Under the pieces are notes generated by a model. It did no database searches. It had not been told where the DNA came from and saw only the letters and a list, made by a program, of their open reading frames with translations. Made by a program: the position numbers and the translations under genes. 46,500 nt of DNA from a virus. Below are positions 6,547 to 44,229 of the stretch, in pieces (the first letter of the stretch is position 1; the number at the start of each line of letters is the position of its first letter). The stretch spans positions 1-46,500 of the IMG/VR virus record IMGVR_UViG_3300031952_005193. One strand, 5' to 3'.

Positions 6547-6550
6547 TTTG

Positions 6551-6862: not shown

Positions 6863-6864
6863 TT

Positions 6865-7854: not shown

Positions 7855-8318
7855 CAGACGCTACTGAAATAAAACCTAAATTAGAACTCACAAGAGAAGA
7901 GCATCAGGAACTCCGGATCTACTTTTTCATTGGCAGAAAAAACATTATTGAATTAAGTGTATTTCCTATGCCACCGCAAAAAGAAGAAAAGATTATCTTC
8001 GCATTGGCTTACAAATTAGAAGAAGCGTTTGAAAAAGCAAAACTCAAAGAACAGGGCTTTGCTTTGACTTTTAACGGCCAGAGTATGACGGTGAGGGAAT
8101 TGCTATCTCAATTACAGATTAACGAGGTCGTATCGCCGCCTACCAGCGAAGAACCGGCAAAAATAGAAGAGCCAATCCCACCGGCGCAATTAAACTTTGA
8201 AGAGTTCAGAGCAGGTCTTTTATTTACCGCTAATGAAGATGAGATTGTTTATAAAAATCCGGAAGACAGAGAAACTCTTAAAAGGATAATTGAAACATTA
8301 AAATACGCGCCTAAATAG
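7851..8318 (+). CDS. hypothetical protein before terminase
   Basis: A 155-residue acidic protein. Residues 12-75 contain REEHQELRIYFFIGRKNIIE and a following helix, then a Pro/Glu-rich linker (PPTSEEPAKIEEPIPPAQ, about 105-122) and a short C-terminal domain. The two-domain design with a flexible acidic linker is compatible with a packaging accessory or a regulator. I cannot assign it. It ends 44 bases before the small terminase candidate in a gap that holds no clear signal beyond A/T-rich sequence. Confidence 0.6.
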   Translation: MTDATEIKPKLELTREEHQELRIYFFIGRKNIIELSVFPMPPQKEEKIIFALAYKLEEAFEKAKLKEQGFALTFNGQSMTVRELLSQLQINEVVSPPTSEEPAKIEEPIPPAQLNFEEFRAGLLFTANEDEIVYKNPEDRETLKRIIETLKYAPK

Positions 8319-8362
8319 AATGAACTATTTTCAACTAATTTGAACTACTTTAGTAAGAATCT

Positions 8363-8848
8363 ATGGCAAAACATAAATACAAAAAAGGGCATAAAAAGAC
8401 TGGTGGAAGAAAGAAAGGAACAAAGAATCAAGAAACGATAGCAAAAGAAAAAGCATTGGAAACTTATCAGCAAGAGATGTTGAAACTTCTATTGCCTTTG
8501 GTTAGGTCGCAACAGCAATTAGCGAACGGTTTGGTTGTGGTATTACGGCCCGGATTGGTAAAGAATCAAAAAGGGAAACTTGTTAGATCCGGAGAATTAA
8601 AGCAAGTCAGAGATCCGGACGAAATAGAAGAGTTATTTAACAGCGAGGGCGTTGGAAAAGATTATCATATTGTTTTTGCGAAAGATCCGAATGTCAAAGC
8701 GCTATCTGATATTTTTGATAGAGTATTTGGAAAGCCAAAAGAACAATTAGATATAAATCTTGGTTGGAAAAGAAAGAAGTTAGAGGACATTCAAGACAAG
8801 ATGAATTTGGTTATAGATTTCGTTAGTAGAGAAGCCAAAAGAAAATGA
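8363..8848 (+). CDS. terS: terminase small subunit (putative)
   Basis: A 161-residue protein directly before, and overlapping by four bases, the large terminase. The basic start HKKTGGRKKGTKNQETIAKE is the typical DNA-binding opening of many phage small terminases. The segment KALSDIFDRVFGKPKEQLDI (residues 111-130) is a signature seen in the same group of packaging proteins. The small subunit recognises the packaging site and regulates the motor ATPase. Length fits the family. The assignment relies on the motif plus gene order. Confidence 0.75.
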   Translation: MAKHKYKKGHKKTGGRKKGTKNQETIAKEKALETYQQEMLKLLLPLVRSQQQLANGLVVVLRPGLVKNQKGKLVRSGELKQVRDPDEIEELFNSEGVGKDYHIVFAKDPNVKALSDIFDRVFGKPKEQLDINLGWKRKKLEDIQDKMNLVIDFVSREAKRK

Positions 8849-10446
8849 CAAATACTTTATACCCTTCTTTCCTATATCCGAAATTCGCTTTTGATTCCAA
8901 AGGTGATTTTATTGATTGGGATTATAGCCAACAGCAATTAAGATCTTTGATTTTTAACGAAGAGCAGGCGATCCAAACAGATCCGGCTTGGTTAATGGCC
9001 AGAGAGGTTTTTGTTCAAGATGAGAAGCCGTTTGAATTAAGTCCCGGAGAATTGGAAATCTTTAAGTTGATCATCGGCAGGACCTACAAGAGATCAGTCG
9101 TTCTTTGCTCAACTCAATACGGAAAGACATTGACCATAGCCAGAGGAATTTTAGTCAGAATAGCCAACCGAGCCGAAGAATGGTTGATAATCGTGCCTGA
9201 TGTGAAGCGCGGCAAGATTCTTTTGAATTATATTATTAAGGACACGGCCGAGAATGATTATTTCAAAGACAAACTGATCGGGGTGAAAATGGAAGATCGC
9301 ACGGCTTTGGAAAGATTGCTGGAAGAGAGAAGCAAACTTAAACTGACTTATCAAATAATTGAAAAAGAAAAAACAAGGTATTCGTCAATAGAAATCGTTT
9401 CAGCAGACGCGAGAAGAAGAACAGATACCATCAATTCCATTATGGGTTTTGGCGGAAGGAATATAATCTTTGATGAAGCGCCTTTGACAGATGACGAGGT
9501 AGATGCCGGTGTGTTCAGAATGATAGCAGGAAAAGGCGAAGATACTTTTCTGGTTAAAATCGGCAATCCTTTTTACAGAAATCATTTCTTAAAAGATTGG
9601 CGAAATCCGAACTATATGAAAATTTGGATTGATTACCGGATAGGTTTGGCAGACGGCAGATACAATGAGGAGTTTATTAACGAAGCGAAATTAAAACCGA
9701 AGTTTGATGTTTTGTTTGAATGTAAATTTCCGTCAGAGGAAGCGATAGATACTTTGGGTTGGTCGCCATTAATTACTCAAACGGAATTGGAACAAGCGAT
9801 GACAGATGATTTTAATCCTTTTGGCTTTCCAGCAATGGGCGGAGATCCGGCAGACGAAGGCGAGAATGAAAGCGTGATAGTAGTCAGATGGCGCAATGTG
9901 GCGAAGATAGATTTTGCTTCTAATAAAATCGCACTGATGGAATTTTGCGGAAAGATGGCCCAGACGATTGATCGCTATAAAATTGATGTGAGAACTTGCT
10001 CGGCAGATAAAGTGGGAGTTGGCGCTATGATCCCGGCCGAAATGAAACAGATAGGCAAACCAATTCAAGGAGTTAATGTCGGTGAGGTTTGCGAAAGTCC
10101 GGAGAATCAAGTTCAGTTTATAAATAAAAGAGCAGAGTTTTCTTGGGCCGTAAGAGAGTGGATTAAAAGCGGTGGAAGATTGTTGCGAGATCCAAGATGG
10201 TATCAGTTATTGAATATCAAATACAAAGAAGATCTCAAACGCAGATTAAGAATTATGCCGAAGGCCGATATGAGAAAGCAGGGGATCGCCAGTCCGGACG
10301 CTTTTGACGCTTTGCTTTTAACCTTTGCGCGGCCGCAGATTTATTATACAAAGACCATCGCAGAGGAATTTTTTGAAAAGAAAATGCGAGGGCAATCGCA
10401 GAAGAAAAGGCCCAAAGATAAACCTTTTAAGATGACCGGATATTAA
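8845..10446 (+). CDS. terL: terminase large subunit
   Basis: A 533-residue packaging motor. The ATPase half has a Walker-A-like CSTQYGKT with K94, and Walker B NIIFDEAP with D210 and catalytic E211. The nuclease half has MGGDPADEGENE with D334, SADKVG with D388 and SPDAFDAL with D485 and D488, which are the acidic residues of the RNase-H-like nuclease fold that cuts concatemers. Walker A is atypical (C-S-T-Q-Y-G-K-T), as in other large terminases. It follows the small terminase by ATGA overlap and precedes a zinc-ribbon gene and the portal, the usual order. Confidence 0.95.
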   Translation: MTNTLYPSFLYPKFAFDSKGDFIDWDYSQQQLRSLIFNEEQAIQTDPAWLMAREVFVQDEKPFELSPGELEIFKLIIGRTYKRSVVLCSTQYGKTLTIARGILVRIANRAEEWLIIVPDVKRGKILLNYIIKDTAENDYFKDKLIGVKMEDRTALERLLEERSKLKLTYQIIEKEKTRYSSIEIVSADARRRTDTINSIMGFGGRNIIFDEAPLTDDEVDAGVFRMIAGKGEDTFLVKIGNPFYRNHFLKDWRNPNYMKIWIDYRIGLADGRYNEEFINEAKLKPKFDVLFECKFPSEEAIDTLGWSPLITQTELEQAMTDDFNPFGFPAMGGDPADEGENESVIVVRWRNVAKIDFASNKIALMEFCGKMAQTIDRYKIDVRTCSADKVGVGAMIPAEMKQIGKPIQGVNVGEVCESPENQVQFINKRAEFSWAVREWIKSGGRLLRDPRWYQLLNIKYKEDLKRRLRIMPKADMRKQGIASPDAFDALLLTFARPQIYYTKTIAEEFFEKKMRGQSQKKRPKDKPFKMTGY

Positions 10447-10450
10447 ATCT

Positions 10451-10678
10451 ATGCCGCAACAAAAAGTAATTCCAAGTTTTGTTATCAAATGCCCGAAGTG
10501 TAAAGTGCCGTTTCTTAAAATTTATCCTAACGGTGATCAAACATTTCTAAAATGGTATGATGGCAAAATGAATTTGACTTTTTGTCGCGGAATTTATGAG
10601 ATTATTTGTTTCAAATGCAATACAAAGATAGATGTGATGCAACAGCTATTGACAAGTATCTTTGATACCTTAAAATAA
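10451..10678 (+). CDS. zinc-ribbon protein
   Basis: A 75-residue protein with two cysteine pairs: CPKC at residues 14-17 and CFKC near residue 57, separated by about 40 residues that include LKIYPNGDQTFLKWYDGKMN and a further Cys in TFCRG. This is a zinc ribbon (treble-clef or rubredoxin-like knuckles). It lies between terminase and portal, directly before a terminator-like structure. The role could be DNA or RNA contact during packaging, or Com-like regulation as in phage Mu, where a small zinc-finger protein controls expression. That parallel is inference only. Confidence 0.7.
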   Translation: MPQQKVIPSFVIKCPKCKVPFLKIYPNGDQTFLKWYDGKMNLTFCRGIYEIICFKCNTKIDVMQQLLTSIFDTLK

Positions 10679-10689
10679 AGTAATAGGCA

Positions 10690-10752
10690 GATCTCGTTTT
10701 AAGCCGAGATCAATCAATCCCTCGTGGGAACTGATTGGTTTCGGCTTTTTTT
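10690..10752 (+). terminator. bistable hairpin: intrinsic terminator with competing upstream stem
   Basis: The 5' arm at 10701-10716 (AAGCCGAGATCAATCA) pairs with 10732-10747 over 16 base pairs including two G-U pairs. The pairing encloses a second small stem TCCC-TCGT-GGGA at 10718-10729 and is followed by a T run to 10752. This is a strong intrinsic terminator form. The bases GATCTCG at 10690-10696 can instead pair with CGAGATC at 10705-10711, which uses part of the terminator's 5' arm. The two structures exclude each other, as in attenuators. The element divides terminase genes from head genes. Confidence 0.75.
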
Positions 10753-10758
10753 GTTGAG

Positions 10759-10902
10759 ATGAAAATAAATGAGGTTCAATTCAAAGAGAAAATAAAGAGA
10801 GATGTCCAAAACTATTTTAAGAAAAATAGAAAAAAAATGATAAAAGAACTTAACCAAAGAGCTAAAAATTTATTATGGCTGCTGAAACAAAACCAAAAGT
10901 AG
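10759..10902 (+). CDS. 47-residue basic micro-protein
   Basis: A short frame beginning just after the terminator and overlapping the portal start by 28 bases. It encodes a helical peptide with about 40 percent Lys/Arg (for example QFKEKIKRDVQNYFKKNRKK). It covers most of the 122 bases between terminator and portal. It might bind nucleic acid or be a leader peptide for the portal gene. In so A-rich a sequence a Lys-rich ORF is easily produced by chance, so support is limited. Confidence 0.4.
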   Translation: MKINEVQFKEKIKRDVQNYFKKNRKKMIKELNQRAKNLLWLLKQNQK

Positions 10903-12830
10903 AATCGGAAATATACATTCCAACCGTAGAACAAAAAAAAGAACTTGATTTTGTCTATGGCGAAGTTGATTTAATGATCAAGGAGAGGAATAAAACATAT
11001 CGCCAATTTAACAATCGGACATTAATACCATTCGTAGACGATTCTGAAAAAAGAGTTCAGGGATATGTGCCGGGCAGGGAAGAGCAGGATAAGGAAGAGT
11101 GGCAATCAAATGTTTTTAATCAATCAACGCGCAACAAATTGAAAGCATTAGTTGCTGCTGTTGCTAATACTCCACCGAGCCTCAAATATAGAGCCGTCAG
11201 TTTAAAAGACGGCGGTTTGGATTTAAGAAGGGCGGAAATAATGAAAAATTTAGTCCAGCACTCGCGCTACAAAGCCAATCCTGAAACAGAGATCTTCTGG
11301 GAAGCGTGGACCTGCGCAACGCAAGGAACTGTATTGAAGTACGATGGCTATTTGAAAACAAAATACAAAAGGAAATTTATTAAAAGTTATAATCTGATCA
11401 ACGGCAATTTAACATTTGAAGAAAAAGAAGTTGTGGTCAACGACGAGTGCGTTGATATTTTAGTTCCGATTTCAGAATTATTCATTAAAGATTTTTACAT
11501 CCACGATATTCAAGAGCAACCGGCGATCGCTTGGATCAGGTATTTGGATAAAGAGGCCTGCGAGCAGGAGTTCGGGCAGTTTGCAAATTGGCATTGGGTT
11601 TTAGAAAAATCAAAAGTTGGCGATTATCAATCTGAGACTGAAACATTTTTCTACAAGAAATGGAAAAACCGAGTGGAATCGGAAAACGATTACGAAGTTG
11701 TTAAATACTACAATCGTTTCAAGGATAAGTATGACATTGTGATCAATGGAGTTCTGCTTTTAGAAGCGCCAATGCTCTGGGGAAGGAAAGACAAAGTGTA
11801 TCCTTTTTCAAAAGCTATTTTTGAACCCTTTTCAGGAAGGTCGTTTTTCTACGGAAACTCTTTGCCAAACGCCAATATGGATGTTCAAGATACCATCAAC
11901 ACTCTTTACAATATGTCTTTGGATAAAACCTACCGATCAATGAATCCACCTTTGCTGGCCGGAATTAAAAACAAAGATTTATTAGAGATGGAAAACGAAA
12001 GGATCGGAATGGAGAACACGATTTATGTGGAAGATGTCAATCAGGTTGTCTATCAGAAAATACCCGGCATAACCGATTCTGAAATGGCAATGATAAAATG
12101 GGTGGCGCAAGGAATGGATCTCGGAACAGTTGATATTAACCAGCAAGGGATTGCTGGCAGAGGCGTTACGGCCAGAGAGATCGTGATCGCCAACGAGAGC
12201 GCCAAGAAACTGAAAGGAATCTTCTTTATGTCTTTGACGGATCTCTGGATTCAGAAAACAAAATTAAGATTTTTGAATATCTTACAGAATTACACTCAAC
12301 CCCAAATTGAAGAAATCATCGGCCCAGAAGGAACTAAAACTCTAAAAGAGAGCTTTAGAAAGTTCTTGGTTGAAGGCAGCGAATTTCCTGACGGCTCTAC
12401 TGGAACTTTAGAAATACAAATAGTAAAAAGTGCAAATGAACTTCCGAACCAAGCCGAGTTGGATATCCAAGAAGAGAAGATGAGATTACAGGGAAGAAAA
12501 TATGAAAAGATCGCAATGACTTCCGACTATATTGACAATTATGAATATGATGTTCAGGTAATTTCAGAAAGTTTATATCAAAAAGACAGTGCCGAAGCGC
12601 AAGCAGTTTTCCAAGAGAAATTGAAGATAATGATGATGGCTTTCCCTCAAATTTACAATTCCAATCAAGATGTTTTATTTGACGATATGTGTAATGCCTA
12701 CGGAGATGACAAAACCAAATATAATTTAACACCACCTGTTCCTATTGCGCCGGAAGTGCCACTTGAAACAAAACCAAAAGAAAAGGTTGGCGCAGGCGCT
12801 GGCGGATTATCGCCAATGAAACCTGTCTAA
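10875..12830 (+). CDS. portal protein
   Basis: A 651-residue protein, the size and position of a podovirus portal, which forms the dodecameric DNA channel at the capsid vertex. The N-terminal third contains NVFNQSTRNKLKALVAAVAN, typical of the portal wing. The middle has FEPFSGRSFFYGNSLPNANM, then a DVQDTINTLYNMSLDKTYRS helix and an AGRGVTAREIVIAN stretch, all characteristic of P22- and N4-type portals. The C-terminus is Pro/Lys-rich and probably flexible. It follows the terminase module and precedes scaffold and capsid. The stop is fused to an AAAGGTCG motif. Confidence 0.88.
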   Translation: MAAETKPKVESEIYIPTVEQKKELDFVYGEVDLMIKERNKTYRQFNNRTLIPFVDDSEKRVQGYVPGREEQDKEEWQSNVFNQSTRNKLKALVAAVANTPPSLKYRAVSLKDGGLDLRRAEIMKNLVQHSRYKANPETEIFWEAWTCATQGTVLKYDGYLKTKYKRKFIKSYNLINGNLTFEEKEVVVNDECVDILVPISELFIKDFYIHDIQEQPAIAWIRYLDKEACEQEFGQFANWHWVLEKSKVGDYQSETETFFYKKWKNRVESENDYEVVKYYNRFKDKYDIVINGVLLLEAPMLWGRKDKVYPFSKAIFEPFSGRSFFYGNSLPNANMDVQDTINTLYNMSLDKTYRSMNPPLLAGIKNKDLLEMENERIGMENTIYVEDVNQVVYQKIPGITDSEMAMIKWVAQGMDLGTVDINQQGIAGRGVTAREIVIANESAKKLKGIFFMSLTDLWIQKTKLRFLNILQNYTQPQIEEIIGPEGTKTLKESFRKFLVEGSEFPDGSTGTLEIQIVKSANELPNQAELDIQEEKMRLQGRKYEKIAMTSDYIDNYEYDVQVISESLYQKDSAEAQAVFQEKLKIMMMAFPQIYNSNQDVLFDDMCNAYGDDKTKYNLTPPVPIAPEVPLETKPKEKVGAGAGGLSPMKPV

Positions 12831-18424: not shown

Positions 18425-18841
18425 ATGAAAATAGTGGCAGTTTCGGGCGGTTTTGATCCAGTTCATTTCGGGCATATCAGATATTTCCGATCGGCGAAAA
18501 AACTGGGAAAGGTTATCGTGATCTTAAATTCAGACAGGTTTTTGAAAAAGAAAAAAGGATTTGCCTTAATGCCTTATAAAGAAAGAAAAGAGATCTTGGA
18601 AGCGATCCGGTATGTAGATAAAGTGATTCCTTGCATAGATAGGGATCAGTCAGTTTCTAAAACATTGGCAAAGTTGAAACCGGACATTTTTGCCAAAGGT
18701 GGGGATAGAACAATCAAGAATATCCCTGAAAAAGATGTGTGCAAAAAGTTAAAAATTAAAATGAAATTTCTGGTGGGTGGAAAGAAAGTCCAATCATCAA
18801 CAAGATTATGCCAAAACTTAAAATCCTTTGGTCGTCAGTAA
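18425..18841 (+). CDS. cytidylyltransferase-like nucleotidyltransferase (TagD/RfaE-C type)
   Basis: A 138-residue nucleotidyltransferase of the HxGH family. The N-terminal strand and turn GGFDPVHFGHIRYFRSAKKL contain the H14-F-G-H17 signature for nucleotide binding. KGGDRTIKN near residue 94 and the SSTR motif near 126 complete the active site. Relatives make CDP-glycerol (TagD/GCT) or ADP-heptose (RfaE C-domain). It overlaps the next gene, a glycosyltransferase/methyltransferase fusion, by 34 bases, so it likely supplies an activated sugar or polyol for the same modification. Confidence 0.88.
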   Translation: MKIVAVSGGFDPVHFGHIRYFRSAKKLGKVIVILNSDRFLKKKKGFALMPYKERKEILEAIRYVDKVIPCIDRDQSVSKTLAKLKPDIFAKGGDRTIKNIPEKDVCKKLKIKMKFLVGGKKVQSSTRLCQNLKSFGRQ

Positions 18842-20667
18842 CCCCAACAATAGAATCAGGATACGGAAGAGTGAGTAGGGAAGTTGTAACGCGCTTGGTT
18901 GATCGTGGATATGATGTGATGTATCACGGTTATCAAACGATGGGAAAACTTCATACCATAAATGGCAAGATTAAAATGCTTGATTGCGGTGGTCCGGAAT
19001 ACGGAATGAATGTGCTTGGAAGATATTTTGAACAATATAAGAGAGATATTCTGATCACCCTTTATGACTTATGGGCCTTCTTTGGAAAAATAGAAAAGGT
19101 CAATGCGGCGTGGATACCTTACTTTCCGATAGATGCAGAACCGGTTTCAATCCCTCAATCAGATCCTCTGCGATATGCCTATAAAAGAATTTGTTTTTCA
19201 AAGTTTGCATTAAGGGAATTAAAAAAAGTCAACTTGGGTGCAGAGATAATTTATCACGGAGTTGACACCAAAATTTACAAACCATTCACGGAAGAAAAAA
19301 AGAAAGCGATCAGGAAGAAAACAGGGATTCCGGAAAATGCTTTCTTGGTAGGAACGAATGGCGCGAACACTTGGGATAGAAAAGATTTTCCGAGAATGAT
19401 CAGGATATTTGCAGAGTTCGTTAAAAAGAATAACGCCAAAGACGCATTGTTTTACCTTCACGCCAATCCAGACGGATTGGAAGGCAAGGCGTATTCTTTA
19501 ATTGAATTAGCCAAACTTTACGGTATTCCAAAACAGATGAGATATGCTCATCAAAAGAATCAGCTTTTTGATAGCGGTTTGGCGAAAATGTATAACACTT
19601 TAGATGTTTATCTTACGGCTTCAAGGGCCGAAGGTTGCGGATTGCCGATATTAGAGGCGCAGGCCTGCGGAGTGCCGGCAATCGTTCCAAACAATTCAGC
19701 GCAACCTGAATGGGTAGAAGGACACGGTTGGGTAGTTCCTTGTTCTGATCATATAGTTACTTTGACCACTCCTCTTCATAATAAATGGTATTTGATGGAT
19801 GTAGAGAAGGCGGTTGAGGCCCTGACAGAAGCGTATCAGAACAAAGAATTGCGCTTGAAATACGGAAAAGAAGCGAGAGAGGCAATGCTTCAATACGACT
19901 GGGATAAAATCGTTGACGAGCAATGGCTTCCGTTCCTTCAAAAAGTGGAAGAAGAAATCACTACCGGGATTGTCAAACAAGAGGCGGAAGGAAAAGTTTA
20001 TAATATGCGGATAAACAAGATTGATCGGACAGTAGTGTATATGGTCGTTATTTTTCAAGAGTATGGAAAATATCTGGATCTGACGAAAGACGATGTCTGG
20101 TTAGATGTCGGCGGCCATATTGGCACTTTCTCCATAGACACTTCGGACAAAGTTAAACAGATCTACACATTTGAACCAGAGTTGGGCAACTACGCCATTT
20201 TAGAGAAGAACATTGCCGAAAATAAAATAGAGAATGTTTTGATTTTTAATGAAGCGGTTGTCGGCAATGACGATCAGGAAAGAGAATTTCATTTGGACGA
20301 AAGCAGAAATACCGGTGGACATTCCTTCATTGCGGCCGAAGGCAAGAAAATAATAAAAGTGAAGTGCCGGAACATCAACGAGATTTTGAAAAGTTATAAC
20401 ATTAACAAGGTAAAAATGGACTGCGAAGGCGCAGAATACGAAATTATTAAATCAATGGATCTGACCAATATCAAGGAATTGATAATGGAGTTTCACTTCA
20501 ACCTTTTGGGATTGACGAAGTTTGAAGAACTGGTGGCCCTTTTAAGACAGAAATTTGAGGTAGTTCAGACAGACAAAGTGATCAATCCGTATGGTCAGGG
20601 TAAAATTTATTGTGGAAGTTCCAAGATTAAAAACAAAGGTCGTGAGGAACAAAAAATTATTAACTAA
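18808..20667 (+). CDS. glycosyltransferase (GT4-like) fused to FkbM methyltransferase
   Basis: A 619-residue two-domain enzyme. Residues 1-370 form a GT-B glycosyltransferase: TIESGYGRVSREVVTRLVDR at the N-terminus, and the donor-site region RAEGCGLPILEAQACGVPAI. Residues 405-600 form an FkbM-type SAM methyltransferase with LDVGGHIGTFS starting at L432, then FEPELGNYAILEKNI and a MDCEGAEYEII motif. Such fusions transfer a sugar and O-methylate it. Placed inside the virion gene block with a nucleotidyltransferase, it probably decorates a phage structural protein or alters host surface glycans. The start overlaps the nucleotidyltransferase gene. The last codons contain an AAAGGTCG copy. Confidence 0.9.
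   Translation: MPKLKILWSSVTPTIESGYGRVSREVVTRLVDRGYDVMYHGYQTMGKLHTINGKIKMLDCGGPEYGMNVLGRYFEQYKRDILITLYDLWAFFGKIEKVNAAWIPYFPIDAEPVSIPQSDPLRYAYKRICFSKFALRELKKVNLGAEIIYHGVDTKIYKPFTEEKKKAIRKKTGIPENAFLVGTNGANTWDRKDFPRMIRIFAEFVKKNNAKDALFYLHANPDGLEGKAYSLIELAKLYGIPKQMRYAHQKNQLFDSGLAKMYNTLDVYLTASRAEGCGLPILEAQACGVPAIVPNNSAQPEWVEGHGWVVPCSDHIVTLTTPLHNKWYLMDVEKAVEALTEAYQNKELRLKYGKEAREAMLQYDWDKIVDEQWLPFLQKVEEEITTGIVKQEAEGKVYNMRINKIDRTVVYMVVIFQEYGKYLDLTKDDVWLDVGGHIGTFSIDTSDKVKQIYTFEPELGNYAILEKNIAENKIENVLIFNEAVVGNDDQEREFHLDESRNTGGHSFIAAEGKKIIKVKCRNINEILKSYNINKVKMDCEGAEYEIIKSMDLTNIKELIMEFHFNLLGLTKFEELVALLRQKFEVVQTDKVINPYGQGKIYCGSSKIKNKGREEQKIIN
20635..20642 (+). promoter_or_regulatory. AAAGGTCG motif, copy 7, in the tail of a coding region
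   Basis: The motif lies within the last 33 bases of the glycosyltransferase-fusion gene and begins 47 bases before the ATG at 20682, the same distance as copy 6. Confidence 0.5.
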
Positions 20668-33159: not shown

Positions 33160-34266
33160 ATGAAAACATTACCAGACGGTAGAATCCAAGTAGAAAAAGG
33201 CGATACTCTTTATGGTATCTATGGGCCAAATTGGAAAGCGCTTTCCGGCTATACCGGTGATCCTACCAAATTACCAATAGGAACTATTTTACCTGCCAAA
33301 ACAGGTGGAACTGTGAAGGCAGGTACAGTAGTAAAAGAATCAGCGCCAGCTCCAGCACAAACTTCTACTGGCGGAGTAAATTGGACTGCTTATTATCAGG
33401 GTGTTTTAGCTAATCCAACAGCAACAGAATCGGCAAAGGCGGAAGCAAGACAAAAATTGGCAGCTATTACGCCTGTAAAGAAAGGAGAAGAAGGGAAAAA
33501 AGAAGAGGAAAAAGTTCCTGACTGGCTTGCCAGTAATGATTATTTCAAACAATTATCTCCTGACGATCAAACATACCTAATAAATTACTACAATATCCTG
33601 AAAGTCAACGATACCGAGAAACAGAATATCTTAAAGCAAGCATTTATAGACGCGCAAGCATCTGCCGATCCTTATTTTAAAGAAAAGATAAGAATGGCCC
33701 AAGACGAATTATTAAGGGCTTTGGGAGAGCAAAAAACTGATTTGGCATCAAAACAAAAAGATCTGACACAAAAGATTGAAGATATTAAAACTGATTTAGC
33801 CACCGGCACAGGAAGATTAAGTATAGATGAGCAGGCAGAATTGGCAAGGCAACAAAGGAACTACGAATACGAACTGGAAAATTTAAGAGAAACTGCCGCT
33901 ACATCCGGATTGACTTTTTCAAGCAGAAGGGCTTTGGCAGAAGGCAGGTTAGCTACTGAACAGACAGATATTGTAGAAAGCACCAAAAGATCTTTCCAAA
34001 GACAGATAGAAGATCTCCAAACAGCAGCAGCGAGAGGCGATAGGGATGCGCAGAATCTATTATCAGATTACGAAAGGATTTATGGCGAGAATGTTACGAA
34101 ATTAGGCAGGGCAACAGAAACATATTTAGGAACTACTGGTTTGCCTTCTGACTTGAAAGGATACCGACCATTGGGCGGAGTTGTTGGGACTTTGGAAGAA
34201 GAGAAATTGAAAGATATAACGCAAAGGGCCGAAGCATTAGCTAATTTAAGAAATCCATTTTTATAA
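33160..34266 (+). CDS. internal virion protein with LysM-like N-terminus
   Basis: A 368-residue protein. Residues 4-47, beginning LPDGRIQVEKGDTLYGIYGP and ending TILPAK, form a LysM-like or related small domain (K-G-D-T-L near the start). A Pro/Ala linker follows. Residues 145-330 are long helices rich in Glu, Gln, Arg and Ala (DLASKQKDLTQKIEDIKTDL), a coiled coil. The domain is repeated at the N-terminus of the next gene. Its position before the giant polyvalent gene suggests a co-ejected or core protein that may contact peptidoglycan on entry. Confidence 0.6.
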   Translation: MKTLPDGRIQVEKGDTLYGIYGPNWKALSGYTGDPTKLPIGTILPAKTGGTVKAGTVVKESAPAPAQTSTGGVNWTAYYQGVLANPTATESAKAEARQKLAAITPVKKGEEGKKEEEKVPDWLASNDYFKQLSPDDQTYLINYYNILKVNDTEKQNILKQAFIDAQASADPYFKEKIRMAQDELLRALGEQKTDLASKQKDLTQKIEDIKTDLATGTGRLSIDEQAELARQQRNYEYELENLRETAATSGLTFSSRRALAEGRLATEQTDIVESTKRSFQRQIEDLQTAAARGDRDAQNLLSDYERIYGENVTKLGRATETYLGTTGLPSDLKGYRPLGGVVGTLEEEKLKDITQRAEALANLRNPFL

Positions 34267-34270
34267 ACTT

Positions 34271-35236
34271 ATGGCAAAAATATTACCAGACGGTAGAATC
34301 CAAATAGAATTAGGCGATACTCTTTCCGCTATTTATGGATCAAATTGGAAAGAACTCTCCGGATATACCGGTGATCCAACAAAACTTCAACCCGGAACAA
34401 TTTTACCTGCTAAACCAGCCGGTTCTTTAGGTGGATCACTTACTGGGGAAACAGAGAAAACCTTACCAGTACCTACATTAGACAAATTATCAATGTTTCA
34501 AGATGTGTTGAGATTAGTTACCCAGAAAGCAGGGCAGGAAGCAAAAGTAGCAGGCGCGACAGCATTACCGGAAGGAATGTTAAAACCGGAACAGGTTTCA
34601 GGCGGAACTTTCGCAGATATTTTGAATATGGTCAGTCAACAAAAGACCAGAGGGATTTCAGAAATTTACAAAACTACAGTTGAATTGTTAGACAGGCAGC
34701 AACAGGAAGCCGATAGCCACTTAACAATGTTGATAAATACTGGCGCAATAGCAAATCTTGATGATGATACTTTAACTAAATTGGCGGAATCAACTCATAC
34801 CCCGATTGATTATTTGAAGGAAGTGAGAAAAGTCAAAAAGGAATCCGCAGTTGAAGAAGGATTATCTATTGAAGATGCTGCGACTTATGCTGATATGGTT
34901 TTAACTGGCCAGTTAGATCTAACCAGCGTTCCTTCGGGCGAAGGAATGAGAGCAGAAGTAGGAAGGATGTTATCGCAGGTTTATCAAAATCCGATCGCCA
35001 ACAGAATTGAAGTTTGGAAAGGAAAGAAAGAAAAGTTTTTAGAGGAAGGTGAAGAATCCGGCTACGCAGATCCCGGAACGAGAGAGGATCTCATTAGAGA
35101 AATCAAAAATGCTTTACAGGATTACAGCGTAGATGAAATTAAAGAAATGGTTTATGCTTTAGTGCCTGATGTTTGGGAATTTAATGTCCAAAGAAGGTGG
35201 AGAGCAAAAGCCGGAGTAACAATCATTAACGAATAA
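34271..35236 (+). CDS. internal virion protein, paralogous LysM-like N-terminus
   Basis: A 321-residue protein whose first 46 residues (ILPDGRIQIELGDTLSAIYG followed by SNWKELSGYTGDPTKL) closely match those of the preceding protein. The nucleotide sequence encoding LPDGRIQ is almost identical in both. The rest differs: helical, charged, with DTLTKLAESTHTPIDYLKEV and a C-terminal EIKEMVYALVPDVWEFNVQR. This suggests duplication of one targeting domain onto different bodies. It ends in a TAATATG junction with the giant gene. Confidence 0.6.
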   Translation: MAKILPDGRIQIELGDTLSAIYGSNWKELSGYTGDPTKLQPGTILPAKPAGSLGGSLTGETEKTLPVPTLDKLSMFQDVLRLVTQKAGQEAKVAGATALPEGMLKPEQVSGGTFADILNMVSQQKTRGISEIYKTTVELLDRQQQEADSHLTMLINTGAIANLDDDTLTKLAESTHTPIDYLKEVRKVKKESAVEEGLSIEDAATYADMVLTGQLDLTSVPSGEGMRAEVGRMLSQVYQNPIANRIEVWKGKKEKFLEEGEESGYADPGTREDLIREIKNALQDYSVDEIKEMVYALVPDVWEFNVQRRWRAKAGVTIINE

Positions 35237-35237
35237 T

Positions 35238-38200
35238 ATGTCAATTTTGGATACCTTAAATAAAATTGAGGAATCCAAGAAGAAAAGAGAAACTGCTGGA
35301 GAAATTATTGGTGTGGAGAAAGAAAAACTGCCACCGCTTTCAGAAGTTAAATTGAAAGAGCAGGCAGTAAAGAAAACAGAATTTGAGAAGCAGATGGAAG
35401 AAGTGAAAAAAGCACCTTCTTGGATACAAATCTTACCGGGAGAACTCCTGCGGACAGCAGGGGGAATCTTAGGTTATGAGCCGGGAATGCTTGCGGAATA
35501 TAAAGAATTAACCAAAGGTCAGAAATGGTATGAACAAGTTTGGGGAGTGGCAAAAGAAGTTCCCGGAGCAATAGAAAAAGTTGGCAAAGAAATTGTCAAA
35601 GCGCCTTTTAGAGTTGCCGCGACAATAGTTGAACCGTGGATAAACACGGCTTATGGGTTAGAACCTATTGAGGAAAAACCAATCAAGTTGCCAGTTTTAG
35701 GAGAAGTTCCGACAATGTTTTATTCTTACCAGCAAATGAGAAAAGCCGGTATGTCGCCTTTAGAATCTGGGTTAATGGCAGGATCTCAAACTGCTTTGGA
35801 TCTTGCGATTAGTGCAGGTTTTGCGCAATACTTTTTGAGTAAATTTCCAGTCAAAGTCAATTCAGGAGAATTTACACCAACCGTCAAACCAGATGGAAGT
35901 TTGAAAATGACATTTGGAAAATCACTCAAAGATACCAAGCCCATAATGAAAGAGGCGAAGTATTACAATATGGGAAAAGTCAGGAATCCGATTGGCGGAA
36001 CTTCTGATATGGTTTTAGAAGTTGTGCCTACGGCTTCAAAAACAATTAAGATTACCGGATATAATATAAGCCCTTCTCAATTTCAATATAATCTCAATCA
36101 AATAGGAAGAACATTAAAAGAAATCGGGATTACCTATACCCAGCAACCGCCAGAAGTCAGAAGTATTATCTTGCCAGATACCGTAACTGATTTGATGGCC
36201 GGTAGGTTAACAGCACCACCGCCTGCTGCTGGGTTAACGGTTGTGCCACCTCTGGTAGTCAAACCGCCAGTAACGCCAGCGCCTGCACCGGTAGCACCAG
36301 AAATGATTACACCGCCAACACCAAAAACTCAATTAGAAAAAGTAAGCGAGATTATAACAAAAGTAGAAGCAACTAAAGCGGTCCAACCGACAGCACCAAA
36401 GTTACAGATCACCGCCAAAGGGAAAAAGGCATTAGGTAAAGAATTAGTGCCAGAGGAAAAAGTTGAATTAGAAACCGCAGAAGAAATGGAAAAATTAAGA
36501 GCCGAAGCTGAAAAAGCCAGAAAAGAAGCACTTTCATCAACTTTTGAAGAAGCAATTTCCAAAGCAGAAAAAGAAGGCGCAAAATCAATTTATAAAACTC
36601 CTTACACCCAAGCCGATTACATAATAGCAAAGATATTTGCCGGCGAACCGATTCCTGAAGAATTAAATAGTTTAGCAGTAAATATGGTAGAACAAGGAGG
36701 ATTAGAGCAAGTCCCAAAAGGGCAGGGAACGGAAATTGATATGGCAGGAATGTTTTTTGAAACCGAAGAAACAATCAAAGAAGGCAGAAAATATAGTTAT
36801 AAATTCCTTTCGCCGGAAGATGGCGGACTTGATAAAGCAACCTATGAAGAATTTTATGAGAAGAATTTAGACGAAGTAAGCAAAATGGACTGGAGAGAAT
36901 TACAGGAAGGAAGTGGAGTTGAAACTAAATTAAAAATGGGAGATCTGATTTCTTCAAAAGAGATCCCTGATTTCAAGACAGTTACCAAAGGTAAAAACAA
37001 AGGAAAAGTATTGGAGATTCCGGGCTTTGGAATTGTCCAAGATATTTTTGATGATGGCAGTATGATCGCCATTACGAAAGACGGATACCAAAAACTTGAT
37101 TTTTATGGAGTGAAAGAAGTTTTAGAAGCTGAATTAACAGAAGGTGATAAAACTAAAATCGCTGAATTAAGAGATCTGGAAGAAAATCCACAGAAAATAA
37201 AAAAGGCCGTTCCAAAGGAAAAGCCAGTTGAAAAAGTTAAACCAGAAAGAATTTACGCACCTTCAGAGGAAGGCGCAGTTGCGATTTCAGTAGGTGGAGT
37301 AACCTCAATTCCTTCTTCCAAGATACCACCGACAGCACCTACCTTGCGGAAACTTTTGGAAGACTTATCAAACATTTCAGCAAAAAGCACACCGTTTTCT
37401 TCGGAAACTTTGAAGATCCCATCGGAGGTTTTCAAGAAATATAGAAATTTAATTGAAGAAGTTTTTTCTGCCATAAATAAAGATGATACTATTCTATCTT
37501 TATTATACAAAAAAGCAGTAGATAATGTCAATAGTTTAGCGAAATTATCAAAAGACCTCGCACCAGATGGCCAAGTTAGGATTGATATTAAAACTCCAAA
37601 TAGTATTGTTGAAAAAGTAATCATAAAAAGAATACAAGGCGATGAAAATTATACATTTGACGATATTAACGATGTTTTGAGAGCAACGGTAGTTGCTAAA
37701 GATAAGATGGAGATCTCGGAAATGATCGCGAAGATTGATGAGAAAATTATTATCGGAGATACTGATTACTTTGCCACTCCAAATAAGTATGGTTATAGAG
37801 GTCGGCATATTGATATTAAATTGGAAAGTGGTCAGATTACAGAAATTCAATTTCATACTCCGGAAACATTAAAAGTAAGGACAGAACTTTATAAGACGAT
37901 CTATAAAAATAATCGTATTTTGGATAAAATCTCTCCAGAAGTTCTGAAAAAAAGCAATGGAATTGCCAACCATATTTTAGGCGAAGAGGGAGTGGAGATT
38001 ACCGGAGAGGTCAAGAAACTGTTGGGAATAAAAGAAGTAAAGAAGCCACCTGTTATTAAACCAGAAGTTAAGTCAGAGAAAATCAAACCTGAACCGACGG
38101 AAGAAGAAAAACCGATTCCTTATGAATTAACCGGTAAAGGAGAGAAATTTGTAGGAAGAGTAAAAACAATAAGAAAGATGGCGATTAAAGAATTTCCTGC

Positions 38201-41200
38201 CACAGAAAATAGAGCAAGGATAGAAAAGAAGATTTTTGATAACTTTTCATCATTTGCCCTTACATCCTATGCCTTACCAATTTTAAATAGTATCGCCATT
38301 GATGGAAACAAAATTATCGCAACTGATTTGGAATCAGGTTTGGTCTATACCGGCAAAACCGATTTCAAGAAAAAAGTGGTATTGCCGGCGAAGTTTTTAA
38401 AAGGGAAAGGAATCCCAGACATTGAAGAGTTAATAGCCAGAGTTCCTACTGAATTTAAGTTTGAAGATTATCCAATGATTCCAGAATTGCCGAGAAAAGA
38501 TTTGATAGAAAGCACTATTATCCGACTTGATCCAAAAACTTTAACAAAAGCGATTTCCTCAATAAAAAAAGAAGAACGCTGGGGTGCTGGCAGGCCAGAG
38601 ATACAAGGAGTATATTTCCATCCGACTTCTGATGGTTCAGGAATGGTAGTTGTTTCAACTGATTCATTTAGGTTATGGAAACAAACATTGCCAGTTCCTA
38701 CCGGCAAGGATTTCAAATTTATCTTGCCAAGACAAAGTGCTGTTAGATTACAGAAAATTCTGGATAAAGTCAGGCCCGATGGCAATTTGATAAGAGTTAA
38801 ATTTACAAAAAACCAGATAAGTTTTGAATTTGATAATTTTACATTTTATAGCAAATTGATAGAGGGAGATTATCCAGCTTATGACGCAAAAGATATTGGA
38901 TTACTCGGTAAAAAGATGGAAACCACTTTTGAAGTAAATAGAGAAGAAATTTTAGATGTCTTACAAGAAGCCAAACCTTATATTGCAAAACTAAATGATG
39001 TCGGATTAAGTGTTGATCCAAAGAAAAATACTCTAAAAATTACGGCCACTACCTTCAAAAAAGAGATCCCGGTAGTCATTGAAAAAAATGTTAAGACAAA
39101 TCCGGCAGACGATCAGTATATTTTGATGCAGATAAAAAATGATGTTGGAATAGAAGGAACAAGCTATTTCAATGTTAATTTCTTAAACGATTTCTTAAAA
39201 AATGCGCAATCTGAAAAGGTTACTGGTTCTTTGATGAAAAGCCAAGATGCACTTACTGTTTGGAAGGAAGTTTCTATTGAACAAGAAGCAAAATTCGTCA
39301 GAGATTTGGGAAAGAGAGTTTATATTCCAGCCGAAAAAAGTAAAGAATTTATTATGGACCTATTGGAAAAGTCCTCCAGCAAACCTTATATCAAGAGAAA
39401 ACAATCCTTTGTAACCTTGCAATTAAAAGACAGGGGATATTTCTTCGGGAGAGAACAAACCGTTCAAGGGCCGGATGATATAGCCGATTTGATGAGGGAG
39501 TTAAAAAACCACGATAGGGAGAAATTTTATTTAGTTGATTTGGATAAAAATGGAAAGATACTTATGATTGACAATGTTTCAGTTGGAACTGTAGGCTCGG
39601 CTATGATTCATCCTCGTGAAGTATTAAAATCGGTTATCCTTTCTGGATCTAAAAAAGTTTATCTTGTTCATAATCATCCTTCTGGAAATGTTCAAGCGTC
39701 AGAAGATGATATTATAATAAATACAAGACTGAATAAAGTATTGAAAGAATTAGAAATTGAACCTCAAGGGCATCTTATTATGAATAGAGTGGGTTACGGA
39801 TTTTTGTCGCCAGAAGGAGATTTTACAGAAATGAATATGCCCTTAGAAACACGCCAAAGAGCAAAAATGAGAATGGTAGAAATAGAACAAAGATTTCAGG
39901 ATTTGCCAGAAAAGATAGATAAGCCAATAAGGCGAGCAGATGATGTGGTAGATGTGATGGGATTGGTTCTCAATCGGGAATCTCCAACTATTGTCGGTTT
40001 ATATTTAGATGCTCGGAATAAAATAAACGGGATTGAAATTATAGATTTTTCTTTAAAAGATCCTCACAAAATAGGAAGAAGAATAATGCGGAATTCTGTT
40101 TTGAACAATGCCGTTGGTATTATTTTGGGAACTAATAAAATTTTATCTGGTGATCCAACTATCGCCGCCTTTCAGGTAATTGAAGATAAGTTAAAACTTC
40201 TTGGTGTAGATTTGATAGATGTAGTAGATCTCCAGAAGTCAAGTTTAATTTCAAGAAAACTCATTGGTAAAGATAGGGCAACAATGCCCTATGAAGTTAC
40301 GAAAACATTTGATAAATATGCCGTAAGAGAGCCAGAAGCCGAATACGGAATGTTTACTCCCGAAGAACAAGAAGCCCTTACTTATATCCAAAAAGGAGAA
40401 CCAGTTCCTGATAATTTGAAAAGTGCAGTTCAAGGATTGATAGATAAAGGAATAATCAGAACGGCAAAAGTTAAAGTGTCACGAGTAAAAAAGCTGGAAG
40501 AGATGACCGAGTTGGAAAAGAGAGTTGTCCAACAGGCATTTGTGATTAAGAAACTTTCACCAACAATTTTCAATCGTATAAAGAATGTTATTAGCGGACA
40601 CAAGAGAACTAAAATTTACGATCTAACAGAAGCGCAACAAACCGAATTATTAGAATCTCTTATAGATTTAACTCCTGAAAAATTTGGAAAGATAAAACTG
40701 GTTAATGAAGAAACTTTAGAAGCAATGAGAGATTTTATCCCACCAAGCGTTTTAGAAAGAAGATTTATCACTACCGGCGACATTATGAAAAACCTTGACG
40801 AAAAGCAGGTAGATTATCTGGTTTCATTATCCAGACCTATCAGAAATGTTTTAACTAATGGAACTTTAACTCCCGATCACCGGAAAATTGGAGAGAAGAT
40901 CTATGACACCATCAGCGAAACCGAAGAAAACTACAAGATAGAATATCAGGAATGGCACAATAAATTTAGAGGACTTTATAATGAAGCCAGAAAAGTTGAT
41001 AAAAATGTGGATCTAAATGTCTTTGGCTATATAGAACAAAGTTGGCAAGTTCCAGCAAAGACACAAGAATTAGCCGAGTTTCTTAAAACCTTCTATGCAG
41101 ATTCGCTGCCGGTAATGAAACCGAGAAGAATCCGCCAGAAATACATCACTCATACTGCGCCTGCTTTCTGGGAAAAAGTCAATTCCGTAGGTTTAAGAAA

Positions 41201-42920
41201 TACTATCAAAGAAGTCGTTTCAGAAAGTATTGATCAAAGAGAAGGAATTTCTCCGGCAATTATGGCAGCTTTGGAATACATCACATCTAAAGTAAAATTC
41301 AATCCTTATGCCTTACCGAGATCTCAATACGCGGCTTACAGCAGGCAATTAAGGAAAGCCGTGCCGGGCTATGCTTCCTTGTATTTTTACAAGAAAAATT
41401 TTGATCCAATAATGCCGAAGGTTTTAATAATGAAGAGATTTTTACCCGGTAGCACGCAGGTTTATGTTACCAAATATCTTCAGACAGTTGGCGGTAGACC
41501 ATTAGATTTCAGATTATGGCAAAGTCCAGTAGGTAGAACTCTTAAAAAAGCAATAACTTTAGGAGTGAGATTTGAATACGGAACATTGTTAGGGCTTAAC
41601 TTTAGTTCGGCTCTTGGCAATATCGCAGGTGGAACAATAACTAATATCGCCGATATGAAAGCCGGACAGATAGCATTGGGACACCAGAGATTAGCAACAA
41701 AACAAGGAATAAAGATTTTGGAAAAATATAGATTAACTGAACAAACACTTTACCTTGATCCGGTAGGCGGAACTTGGGATAAGTTAAGCAAATTGGAAAA
41801 GGGATTATTCGGTTTAATGCAGGGCGGTGAATTCTATTTAAGAGGATCAACTTCTTTGGGATTGATACCCAAAAATGAATTTAAGACAGGCGTTTTAAGT
41901 TCTGAAACCAGATCCATTATCAGAAGGCAAATAGGAAGGACGCAAGGTTTGTTCGGACCAGCACAAGCAGCATTAATATCTCAAACGACATTATTAAGGC
42001 CTGTCTGGATGTTCAAGCATTGGATGGTAAATGAGATGGAATTGCTGCACAGTTTTTCAAAAGATATGGTTTCAACGATCCGGAAAAATAAAAGTTGGTA
42101 TGGAAGAACGGTTAAAAACAAAGGATTAGTCAGTATTACGAAATGGGCTTTGTTGATGTTCTTATTATATGCTTACGGCCCGGAATTTTTGAAGAAAGAA
42201 GTCCGGCAGGTATTAGGAGTGCCGGTATCTTTATTCAAGGGTTTCTTATCGTGGGCTGATAGCGTTCCTTTGGTTGAGGATACTTTTACCGCAATGAATA
42301 TCATAGTCAGGTTGGGAAATAATGAGATAGCGGAGGCAAGGGAAGATTTCCAAAGTTGGTTGCTTTCAAAACCGGCATTTTCAAAGTTTAGGAATTTCTT
42401 TAATGCTTACACAAAAGGAATGACCGTTACTCCTGATGGTTATGTTCAAGAGAAAATTGATAAGACAGAGGCATTCAAGAGATTATTTGTAGGAAGTTAT
42501 ACCGTCAGACAACAAACAGAGAAGAGATTGAATGAGGAATTAAGCAAAATATTGCCAATGGATACCTATACCAAGTGGGATTATACCTTTGGCTCAAGAA
42601 AAATTAAGACAGATTATCAGCGAGAAAAAGAAAAAATAATGAAAGCGATTGAAGATAAAGGATATTGGAATCCGGAAGAACAAAGTATAAAAATAGACAA
42701 AGAAATTGAAAGAATGTATGGAGTTTATAACGGCCAAGTTAAAAACAGGTTAGATAAATGGTTTGAGGAAAGAGATAAATTAACTGGCGAAACTTCTACC
42801 CAAGATGAAAAAGATTCAATGTTATTAAAAACAACTATACAAGATACGGATATTGCTAATTGGTTTGAAACAGCTTATGAACTGCGAACAGTCCCCAGAA
42901 TTCTGCGGAGAACAAGATAG
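35238..42920 (+). CDS. giant polyvalent protein: RelA/SpoT-like, DnaN clamp and tandem RadC domains
   Basis: A 2560-residue protein, probably packaged and injected like other phage polyvalent proteins. In order: N-terminal helical region with hydrophobic stretches (about 60-200); Pro-rich linker (318-350); charged helices (360-440); a RelA/SpoT-like domain (735-915) with DDINDVLRATV, GYRGRH (852-857) and EIQ (869-871); a DnaN-like sliding clamp (about 975-1345) with LPIL (1013-1016), TDSFRLW (from 1141) and EGDYP (1209-1213). Next come RadC/JAB domain 1 (1395-1525) with HNHPSG at 1478-1483 and S1488/D1491, and degenerate RadC domain 2 (about 1570-1670), which has GTNKILSGDP in place of the metal site. 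The remaining 850 residues are mostly helical, with a membrane-like segment WALLMFLLYAYG near 2303. The single open frame is uninterrupted. Confidence 0.85.
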   Translation: MSILDTLNKIEESKKKRETAGEIIGVEKEKLPPLSEVKLKEQAVKKTEFEKQMEEVKKAPSWIQILPGELLRTAGGILGYEPGMLAEYKELTKGQKWYEQVWGVAKEVPGAIEKVGKEIVKAPFRVAATIVEPWINTAYGLEPIEEKPIKLPVLGEVPTMFYSYQQMRKAGMSPLESGLMAGSQTALDLAISAGFAQYFLSKFPVKVNSGEFTPTVKPDGSLKMTFGKSLKDTKPIMKEAKYYNMGKVRNPIGGTSDMVLEVVPTASKTIKITGYNISPSQFQYNLNQIGRTLKEIGITYTQQPPEVRSIILPDTVTDLMAGRLTAPPPAAGLTVVPPLVVKPPVTPAPAPVAPEMITPPTPKTQLEKVSEIITKVEATKAVQPTAPKLQITAKGKKALGKELVPEEKVELETAEEMEKLRAEAEKARKEALSSTFEEAISKAEKEGAKSIYKTPYTQADYIIAKIFAGEPIPEELNSLAVNMVEQGGLEQVPKGQGTEIDMAGMFFETEETIKEGRKYSYKFLSPEDGGLDKATYEEFYEKNLDEVSKMDWRELQEGSGVETKLKMGDLISSKEIPDFKTVTKGKNKGKVLEIPGFGIVQDIFDDGSMIAITKDGYQKLDFYGVKEVLEAELTEGDKTKIAELRDLEENPQKIKKAVPKEKPVEKVKPERIYAPSEEGAVAISVGGVTSIPSSKIPPTAPTLRKLLEDLSNISAKSTPFSSETLKIPSEVFKKYRNLIEEVFSAINKDDTILSLLYKKAVDNVNSLAKLSKDLAPDGQVRIDIKTPNSIVEKVIIKRIQGDENYTFDDINDVLRATVVAKDKMEISEMIAKIDEKIIIGDTDYFATPNKYGYRGRHIDIKLESGQITEIQFHTPETLKVRTELYKTIYKNNRILDKISPEVLKKSNGIANHILGEEGVEITGEVKKLLGIKEVKKPPVIKPEVKSEKIKPEPTEEEKPIPYELTGKGEKFVGRVKTIRKMAIKEFPATENRARIEKKIFDNFSSFALTSYALPILNSIAIDGNKIIATDLESGLVYTGKTDFKKKVVLPAKFLKGKGIPDIEELIARVPTEFKFEDYPMIPELPRKDLIESTIIRLDPKTLTKAISSIKKEERWGAGRPEIQGVYFHPTSDGSGMVVVSTDSFRLWKQTLPVPTGKDFKFILPRQSAVRLQKILDKVRPDGNLIRVKFTKNQISFEFDNFTFYSKLIEGDYPAYDAKDIGLLGKKMETTFEVNREEILDVLQEAKPYIAKLNDVGLSVDPKKNTLKITATTFKKEIPVVIEKNVKTNPADDQYILMQIKNDVGIEGTSYFNVNFLNDFLKNAQSEKVTGSLMKSQDALTVWKEVSIEQEAKFVRDLGKRVYIPAEKSKEFIMDLLEKSSSKPYIKRKQSFVTLQLKDRGYFFGREQTVQGPDDIADLMRELKNHDREKFYLVDLDKNGKILMIDNVSVGTVGSAMIHPREVLKSVILSGSKKVYLVHNHPSGNVQASEDDIIINTRLNKVLKELEIEPQGHLIMNRVGYGFLSPEGDFTEMNMPLETRQRAKMRMVEIEQRFQDLPEKIDKPIRRADDVVDVMGLVLNRESPTIVGLYLDARNKINGIEIIDFSLKDPHKIGRRIMRNSVLNNAVGIILGTNKILSGDPTIAAFQVIEDKLKLLGVDLIDVVDLQKSSLISRKLIGKDRATMPYEVTKTFDKYAVREPEAEYGMFTPEEQEALTYIQKGEPVPDNLKSAVQGLIDKGIIRTAKVKVSRVKKLEEMTELEKRVVQQAFVIKKLSPTIFNRIKNVISGHKRTKIYDLTEAQQTELLESLIDLTPEKFGKIKLVNEETLEAMRDFIPPSVLERRFITTGDIMKNLDEKQVDYLVSLSRPIRNVLTNGTLTPDHRKIGEKIYDTISETEENYKIEYQEWHNKFRGLYNEARKVDKNVDLNVFGYIEQSWQVPAKTQELAEFLKTFYADSLPVMKPRRIRQKYITHTAPAFWEKVNSVGLRNTIKEVVSESIDQREGISPAIMAALEYITSKVKFNPYALPRSQYAAYSRQLRKAVPGYASLYFYKKNFDPIMPKVLIMKRFLPGSTQVYVTKYLQTVGGRPLDFRLWQSPVGRTLKKAITLGVRFEYGTLLGLNFSSALGNIAGGTITNIADMKAGQIALGHQRLATKQGIKILEKYRLTEQTLYLDPVGGTWDKLSKLEKGLFGLMQGGEFYLRGSTSLGLIPKNEFKTGVLSSETRSIIRRQIGRTQGLFGPAQAALISQTTLLRPVWMFKHWMVNEMELLHSFSKDMVSTIRKNKSWYGRTVKNKGLVSITKWALLMFLLYAYGPEFLKKEVRQVLGVPVSLFKGFLSWADSVPLVEDTFTAMNIIVRLGNNEIAEAREDFQSWLLSKPAFSKFRNFFNAYTKGMTVTPDGYVQEKIDKTEAFKRLFVGSYTVRQQTEKRLNEELSKILPMDTYTKWDYTFGSRKIKTDYQREKEKIMKAIEDKGYWNPEEQSIKIDKEIERMYGVYNGQVKNRLDKWFEERDKLTGETSTQDEKDSMLLKTTIQDTDIANWFETAYELRTVPRILRRTR

Positions 42921-43182: not shown

Positions 43183-44229
43183 ATGATATTTTTCAAGAAG
43201 AAACCAAAAGTTAATATAGAAAGTTTAGGAGTAATTGACGATCCGAGATCTGAAGAGGAAAAGAAAAAAGATTATAAAGCAGAAGAAATTTTAGCTGCTT
43301 TTGCGCCTATTGAGTGGAAAGAAAAGCCGGAAGCGGAATGGCGAAAATATCCTGTTTTTTACCAAGACCAATCAAGCTCTTGTGTAATTCAAGCAGTCGC
43401 CAAAGCATTAGGAATTGAAAATTATTTGGAAGAAGGAAAATTTATTCATTTGTCTGCCAGAGATGGTTACACAAGAAGAATGAATTATCCGGATCAAGGA
43501 ATGTTTTTTTTAGACGCAATGAATATCGGCTACAAATTTGGTTTAACCATAGAACAACTAATACCATCTCAAGGTTTAGACGAAGCAGCAATGAATATCT
43601 CATCTGACAGAAGTCCTTTAACTGAAATGATAGCCAAGATTGTCAAAGGTGGTAATCACTTCTCTTTTTCGCCAGATATTGAGCAGATAGCTTCCATTGT
43701 TGAACCGACCGGGAAACCAGTTGTAATAGGAGTAAGGTTCGGACCTGATGAATGGTTCGGAAAGAAAATCCCTCAAATTTTGAATAGTCAAGGAATTTGG
43801 GGACACGGAATTTGCGTTACCAATACTACATTATATCAAGGTAAGAAAGCTCTGATTATAGAAGATAGCGCCTACTATGATCCAACTAATGAGGCAGTCA
43901 GGATAGTTACGGAAGATTGGTTTAAGGCAGGCAGGATAACTTGGTCAGGATATTATCAATTTCTGAAGAATGACGGACTACCAACAAGGCCCACTTACCA
44001 ATTTGTGAAAGATCTTAGATACGGAATGGTTAGCGATCCGGATGTTGTTAAATTACAAGAGTGTCTGGCTTATCTGAAGTTTTTTCCGAGTAGTGTAGAA
44101 TTTACCGGAAACTTCTTTGGAAGAACATTAAAAGCAGTAAAAGATTTCCAAGAAGCCAACGGTATCACGCCGGTATCGGGATTCGTCGGCCCGATCACCA
44201 GAAATAAATTAAACGAATTATTCGTCTAA
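43183..44229 (+). CDS. endolysin: papain-like cysteine peptidase with peptidoglycan-binding domain
   Basis: A 348-residue lysin. The catalytic domain (about 45-265) is papain-like: YQDQSSSC with oxyanion Q63 and C67, then WGHGICVTN with H208, then IIEDSAYYD with D228 as third residue. The C-terminal domain (282-348) is a PG_binding_1 module: DPDVVKLQECLAYLKFF, then FGRTLKAVKDFQEANGITPV and GFVGPITRNKLNEL. The wording of this module is typical of Parcubacteria cell-wall proteins. The catalytic domain would cut peptide cross-links. There is no signal peptide, so export would need the holin in the next gene. Confidence 0.85.
   Translation: MIFFKKKPKVNIESLGVIDDPRSEEEKKKDYKAEEILAAFAPIEWKEKPEAEWRKYPVFYQDQSSSCVIQAVAKALGIENYLEEGKFIHLSARDGYTRRMNYPDQGMFFLDAMNIGYKFGLTIEQLIPSQGLDEAAMNISSDRSPLTEMIAKIVKGGNHFSFSPDIEQIASIVEPTGKPVVIGVRFGPDEWFGKKIPQILNSQGIWGHGICVTNTTLYQGKKALIIEDSAYYDPTNEAVRIVTEDWFKAGRITWSGYYQFLKNDGLPTRPTYQFVKDLRYGMVSDPDVVKLQECLAYLKFFPSSVEFTGNFFGRTLKAVKDFQEANGITPVSGFVGPITRNKLNELFV

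Follow-up and report, generated by a model that had tools for sequence, protein, structure and literature searches.

A DnaN-type sliding clamp embedded in a giant modular protein of a temperate podovirus

The window analysed here, a 46.5 kb virus contig record (positions 1–46,500), encodes a protein of 2,560 residues in a single uninterrupted frame, part of which reads like a DnaN sliding clamp. The locus raises the question of whether this part is a genuine clamp and, if so, what a clamp would do inside such a giant protein. The phage is a temperate podovirus (short-tailed), and the giant gene lies in the position of an ejection protein. It follows the tail genes and two genes for coiled-coil proteins with a LysM-like start and precedes a candidate lysin gene (Table 1), an order that supports a position typical of podovirus ejection proteins. 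The record also encodes a capsid protein, large terminase, tail, integrase, exonuclease and SF2 helicase. The portal and adaptor match SU10 families, which are podovirus-type, at scores below the curated cut-offs, and no tRNA was found in the 46.5 kb record. In agreement with the preliminary description of this DNA, no DNA polymerase or primase was recognised among the larger ORFs scanned. A glycosyltransferase fused to an FkbM-type methyltransferase (18808–20667) is encoded within the structural gene cluster.

Table 1. The giant gene, its modules and its neighbours (nucleotide positions in the window; residue numbers of the giant protein).
Feature	Positions	Strand	Basis
Coiled-coil protein with LysM-like start, candidate ejection/internal virion protein	33160..34266	+	phrog_4287 DNA ejection protein, E=0.004, weak
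Second protein sharing that LysM-like start, candidate internal virion protein	34271..35236	+	LysM Pfam, E=0.3, below cut-off
Giant protein; N-terminal two thirds variable with effector-like modules, C-terminal third conserved	35238..42920	+	Comparison with the L005 giant ORF
RelA/SpoT-type (p)ppGpp synthetase-like nucleotidyltransferase domain, residues 784–890	37587..37907	+	Pfam PF04607, E=1.2e-8, above cut-off
Clamp domain I, shortened	38121..38477	+	Alignments, AlphaFold/Foldseek; no significant profile score on its own
Clamp domain II, complete (8 strands, 2 helices), residues 1095–1216, with TDSFRL and EGDYPAY client-pocket motifs	38520..38885	+	Profiles, model
Clamp domain III, residues 1229–1343, insertion near 1275–1290, final MPMR-type strand absent	38922..39266	+	phrog_947 and TIGR00663 alignments extend through; model strands
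RadC/JAB domain, residues 1411–1519	39468..39794	+	Pfam PF04002, E=4.9e-28; PDB 2qlc, E=1.3e-15
Conserved C-terminal segment, residues 1707–2560, mainly helical	40356..42917	+	55.5% identity to G001/L005
Papain-like peptidase with peptidoglycan-binding domain, likely lysin	43183..44229	+	PG_binding_1, E=4e-10

The preliminary description had placed a complete DnaN-like clamp at 38160–39280. That a DnaN-type clamp is embedded in the giant protein is borne out by both sequence and fold, and the supported span, about 38121–39266 (residues ~962–1343 of the 2,560), is close to the one proposed; the motifs quoted there are all present in ORF 35238–42920, at about the residues given. In a search with the whole protein, Pfam DNA_pol3_beta_2 matches residues 1097–1213 (E=4.7e-15). 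The clamp segment also matches phrog_947, a phage processivity factor (E=7e-29), NCBIfam dnaN TIGR00663 (E=3e-22) and DnaN chains in the PDB (E down to 4e-12), the best being those of Streptococcus and Bacillus. These significant profile matches assign the segment to the DnaN family. With the DnaN domain II family as query, a single clamp was detected in the 46.5 kb record.

The three domains contribute unequally to this assignment. In a purpose-built profile test, the profile of the entire clamp scored 87.0 bits, compared with 1.4 bits for the best of 500 shuffles. Domain II alone reached 70.9 bits (best of 500 shuffles, 3.3), and its identity is certain at the sequence level. Domain III alone reached 4.2 bits (best of 500 shuffles, 1.9), which is weak by itself, and the domain I profile alone gave no score above those of 500 shuffles.

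Domain I, which is shortened, was recovered only structurally. The AlphaFold model of the clamp, built from 38 aligned sequences, has a pTM of 0.70; confidence is high for domain II and for parts of domains I and III. The top Foldseek matches were DnaN structures only, over about 418 alignment columns, and comparison of the model with E. coli β (2pol) gave TM-scores of 0.63 (query) and 0.76 (target) with all three domains matched. The model and the Foldseek alignments place the three clamp domains in order. The structural comparison proposed in the preliminary description recovered E. coli β over its full set of domains. The domain I part of the model is not independent evidence, because the AlphaFold input alignment contained DnaN proteins.

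The clamp is flanked by other recognisable modules; from the N-terminus, the order is RelA/SpoT-type domain, DnaN clamp, RadC domain and conserved C-terminus (residue ranges in Table 1). The RelA/SpoT-like domain retains the NKYGYRGRH and EIQ motifs and weakly matches B. subtilis YjbM (5f2v, E=0.003). In the RadC domain, the metal-site motif HNHPSG-x4-SEDD is intact. A second, degenerate RadC-type fold, suggested by a by-eye likeness at residues ~1560–1690 (39914–40308), was discarded, as searches gave it no statistical support.

The C-terminal segment matches no Pfam family and none of the known injection or polyvalent-associated (LPD) families, and its AlphaFold model, based on a two-row alignment, has a pLDDT of 38. 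A search for relatives of this segment found a single one, in another phage contig (L005/G001), whose giant protein (6491–12598; 2,035 residues) shares only the C-terminal 854 residues, at ~56% identity. Upstream of the junction, the L005 protein contains a DnaJ domain (E=2e-10) and a region with a zincin-like HEVVHAY motif, which matches no family, in place of the RelA/SpoT, clamp and RadC modules; no clamp was found in it. Of the window proteins compared, only the product of one small gene, the C-terminus of the giant protein, the lysin encoded downstream and the integrase match the L005 contig, and no significant similarity was seen between the two terminases. In both phages the giant gene is immediately followed by that of a lysin candidate; the two candidates are 26% identical, and the L005 counterpart matches Peptidase_C1. 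Since the C-terminus is common to both phages while the upstream modules differ, it behaves as a carrier for exchanged N-terminal modules.

On balance, we favor the view that the giant protein is a phage polyvalent protein in which the clamp serves as a docking or decoy module for host clamp-binding proteins at entry. The conserved C-terminal third would place the protein in the virion or the entry machinery, and the giant protein is probably carried in the virion. The N-terminal two thirds would then be exchangeable modules that exert their effects inside the host as infection begins. Much of the groove that receives the clamp-binding peptides of the host's replication and repair proteins appears to be retained in domain II and most of domain III, and a clamp with such a groove could tether these proteins to the incoming DNA beside the RadC domain, or alternatively could draw them away from the host clamp.

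The functional parts of the clamp were assessed against E. coli β, 22 viral clamps and 15 Lactobacillales DnaN proteins. The pocket and the interface were mapped from the residue roles of the E. coli β sequence, whose length, 366 residues, agrees with that of PDB chain 1mmi. Seven predicted pocket residues are retained in domains II and III (R1119, I1122, T1141, R1145, L1146, P1213 and Y1215). R246 and the C-terminal MPMRL tail of the client pocket are not retained, and the MPMRL strand has no counterpart in the embedded clamp. Additionally, domain I is ~24 residues shorter than that of E. coli β in the alignments, so that the clamp is not complete as first described. A 25-residue insertion follows the first helix of domain I, and a further insertion is present in domain III. 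The gap in domain I coincides with the E. coli R96–R105 hairpin, known as part of the β clamp dimer interface, and the model has a pLDDT below 50 there. R96–R103 are absent and R105 is replaced, so that an intact domain I/III dimer interface was not found.

These changes bear directly on the alternative that a working sliding clamp is packaged with the genome and forms a ring on the phage DNA, alone or with host DnaN, giving the host polymerase immediate processivity. Such a role would fit the three domains in order and the DnaN-like model, the lack of a recognised phage polymerase or primase among the larger ORFs, and the example of the archaeal virus HCIV-1, whose VP1 has clamps and which also has no recognisable polymerase (PMC4958249). 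However, a normal closed sliding ring is improbable, because domain I is shortened where the dimer interface should be and the C-terminal tail is missing for client binding. A dimer would also be impeded by the fused chains, which exceed 900 residues on either side of the ring. Closure in the canonical manner is doubtful; the module may form a true sliding ring, but docking or decoy function is more likely, and the packaging of a working clamp is an unlikely explanation overall.

The truncations in domains I and III could instead indicate that a host dnaN gave rise to an insertion that is decaying, or has a structural role only, and lacks clamp activity; the low identity to other clamps (~20% in the alignment) is consistent with this. 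The clamp module may be non-functional or structural. Against this reading stand a single frame open over 7.7 kb, the retention of the invariant DnaN alignment columns (the LPIL leucine, G, V-TD--R and the YP proline) and the intact motif of the adjoining RadC domain, and we consider it improbable. Least probable is a late cytoplasmic protein that is not delivered and whose clamp acts in phage DNA replication after expression: the packaging of the giant protein is deduced indirectly and its C-terminal segment matches no known family, but the gene follows those for the tail and the candidate ejection proteins and precedes the lysin gene, and the size, module mixture and swapping fit polyvalent proteins (PMC5512222).

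The docking or decoy function of a polyvalent protein can be extended, tentatively, to a more specific scenario, in which a tailed phage would inject a virion clamp fused to an alarmone synthetase and RadC, so that replication and repair enzymes of the host would be captured on the entering genome ahead of any phage gene expression.

Stand-alone DnaN and phrog_947 proteins resemble the embedded clamp in domain order, in the TD-x-x-R-L and EG-x-YP-x-Y motifs and in overall fold; they are encoded by separate genes, whereas the clamp of the giant protein is embedded and shortened in domain I and at the C-terminus. The other viral clamps matched by the clamp alignment are ordinary separate ORFs (29 of 29), as are the ~155 Bacillota DnaN matches, with two GC-rich read-through frames discounted. 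The latter, two long open frames of 931 and 1143 residues, were candidates for embedded clamps and proved to be read-through upstream of an ordinary dnaN. Three public records labelled as phage (MT836079, OR846603 and MT835859) were likewise set aside, being bacterial chromosome fragments with dnaA-dnaN-recF-gyrB. Searches by tblastn in phages and plasmids, viral pattern scans and a genome scan revealed no further phage whose DnaN clamp is embedded, and none of 149 Bacillota genomes contained an embedded DnaN clamp.

The closest known class is that of the polyvalent proteins of phages and conjugative elements (Iyer et al. 2017, PMC5512222), and the ORF is read as a polyvalent protein because its modules are swapped on a conserved C-terminus. 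It is a giant multidomain protein of a (pro)phage, two of its modules (RelA/SpoT and RadC) are on the published list, and modular exchange is seen with one relative, the L005 giant ORF. Unlike biochemical activities are predicted in one chain from the RelA/SpoT, DnaN and RadC domains, and the gene is phage-encoded near virion genes (terminase, portal, capsid and tail, with an integrase, in the 46.5 kb record). No Pfam LPD, DarA or MPTase domain was recognised in the giant protein, the match to DarA_N (E=0.05) being below the cut-off, and of the two giant proteins it is only that of L005 that has a zincin-like motif; these domains are common among polyvalent proteins and are not required of each member. 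The giant protein differs from the polyvalent proteins described in the main text of PMC5512222 in having a clamp, a RadC domain in a phage, and a conserved C-terminus without a Pfam domain. That text assigns RelA/SpoT to phage types and RadC to conjugative-element types only, and contains no mention of a clamp or DnaN. RadC, earlier described as limited to conjugative elements (PMC5512222), is now placed in a polyvalent protein of a tailed phage, and a replication-processivity factor would join the modules fused to the giant entry proteins of phages.

A second parallel is found outside the tailed phages. The statement in the preliminary description that no ejection protein with a built-in clamp is known holds for tailed phages as far as searched, but VP1 of HCIV-1, a confirmed virion protein, was reported in 2016 to carry two PCNA clamps (PMC4958249). 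HCIV-1 VP1 (KT809302, 3472–8298; 1,608 residues), which surfaced via a viral structure library, matches PCNA in the PDB with E=5e-28. Like the phage protein, whose presence in the virion is deduced, it is very large, with embedded sliding clamps, a conserved C-terminus (~200 residues) and an exchanged N-terminal part. VP1 of SH1, PH1 and HHIV-2 match it mainly in the C-terminal 200 residues, and, judging from these sequences, clamps seem to have been swapped in and out of alphasphaerolipovirus VP1 too. No sequence relation was seen between the phage protein and HCIV-1 VP1. HCIV-1 is an archaeal tailless virus, and its VP1 has two N-terminal PCNA-type clamps and HhH motifs rather than DnaN, without RelA/SpoT or RadC. 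Together, the two cases, both from viruses without a recognised DNA polymerase, suggest that clamps entered large virion-type proteins at least twice, as bacterial DnaN and as archaeal PCNA, and they make the question of whether a virus brings its own replisome adaptor directly testable. Because HCIV-1 VP1 shows the same pattern of a carrier plus modules, the embedded DnaN clamp is an addition to the list of polyvalent modules, with an archaeal parallel, rather than a category of its own.
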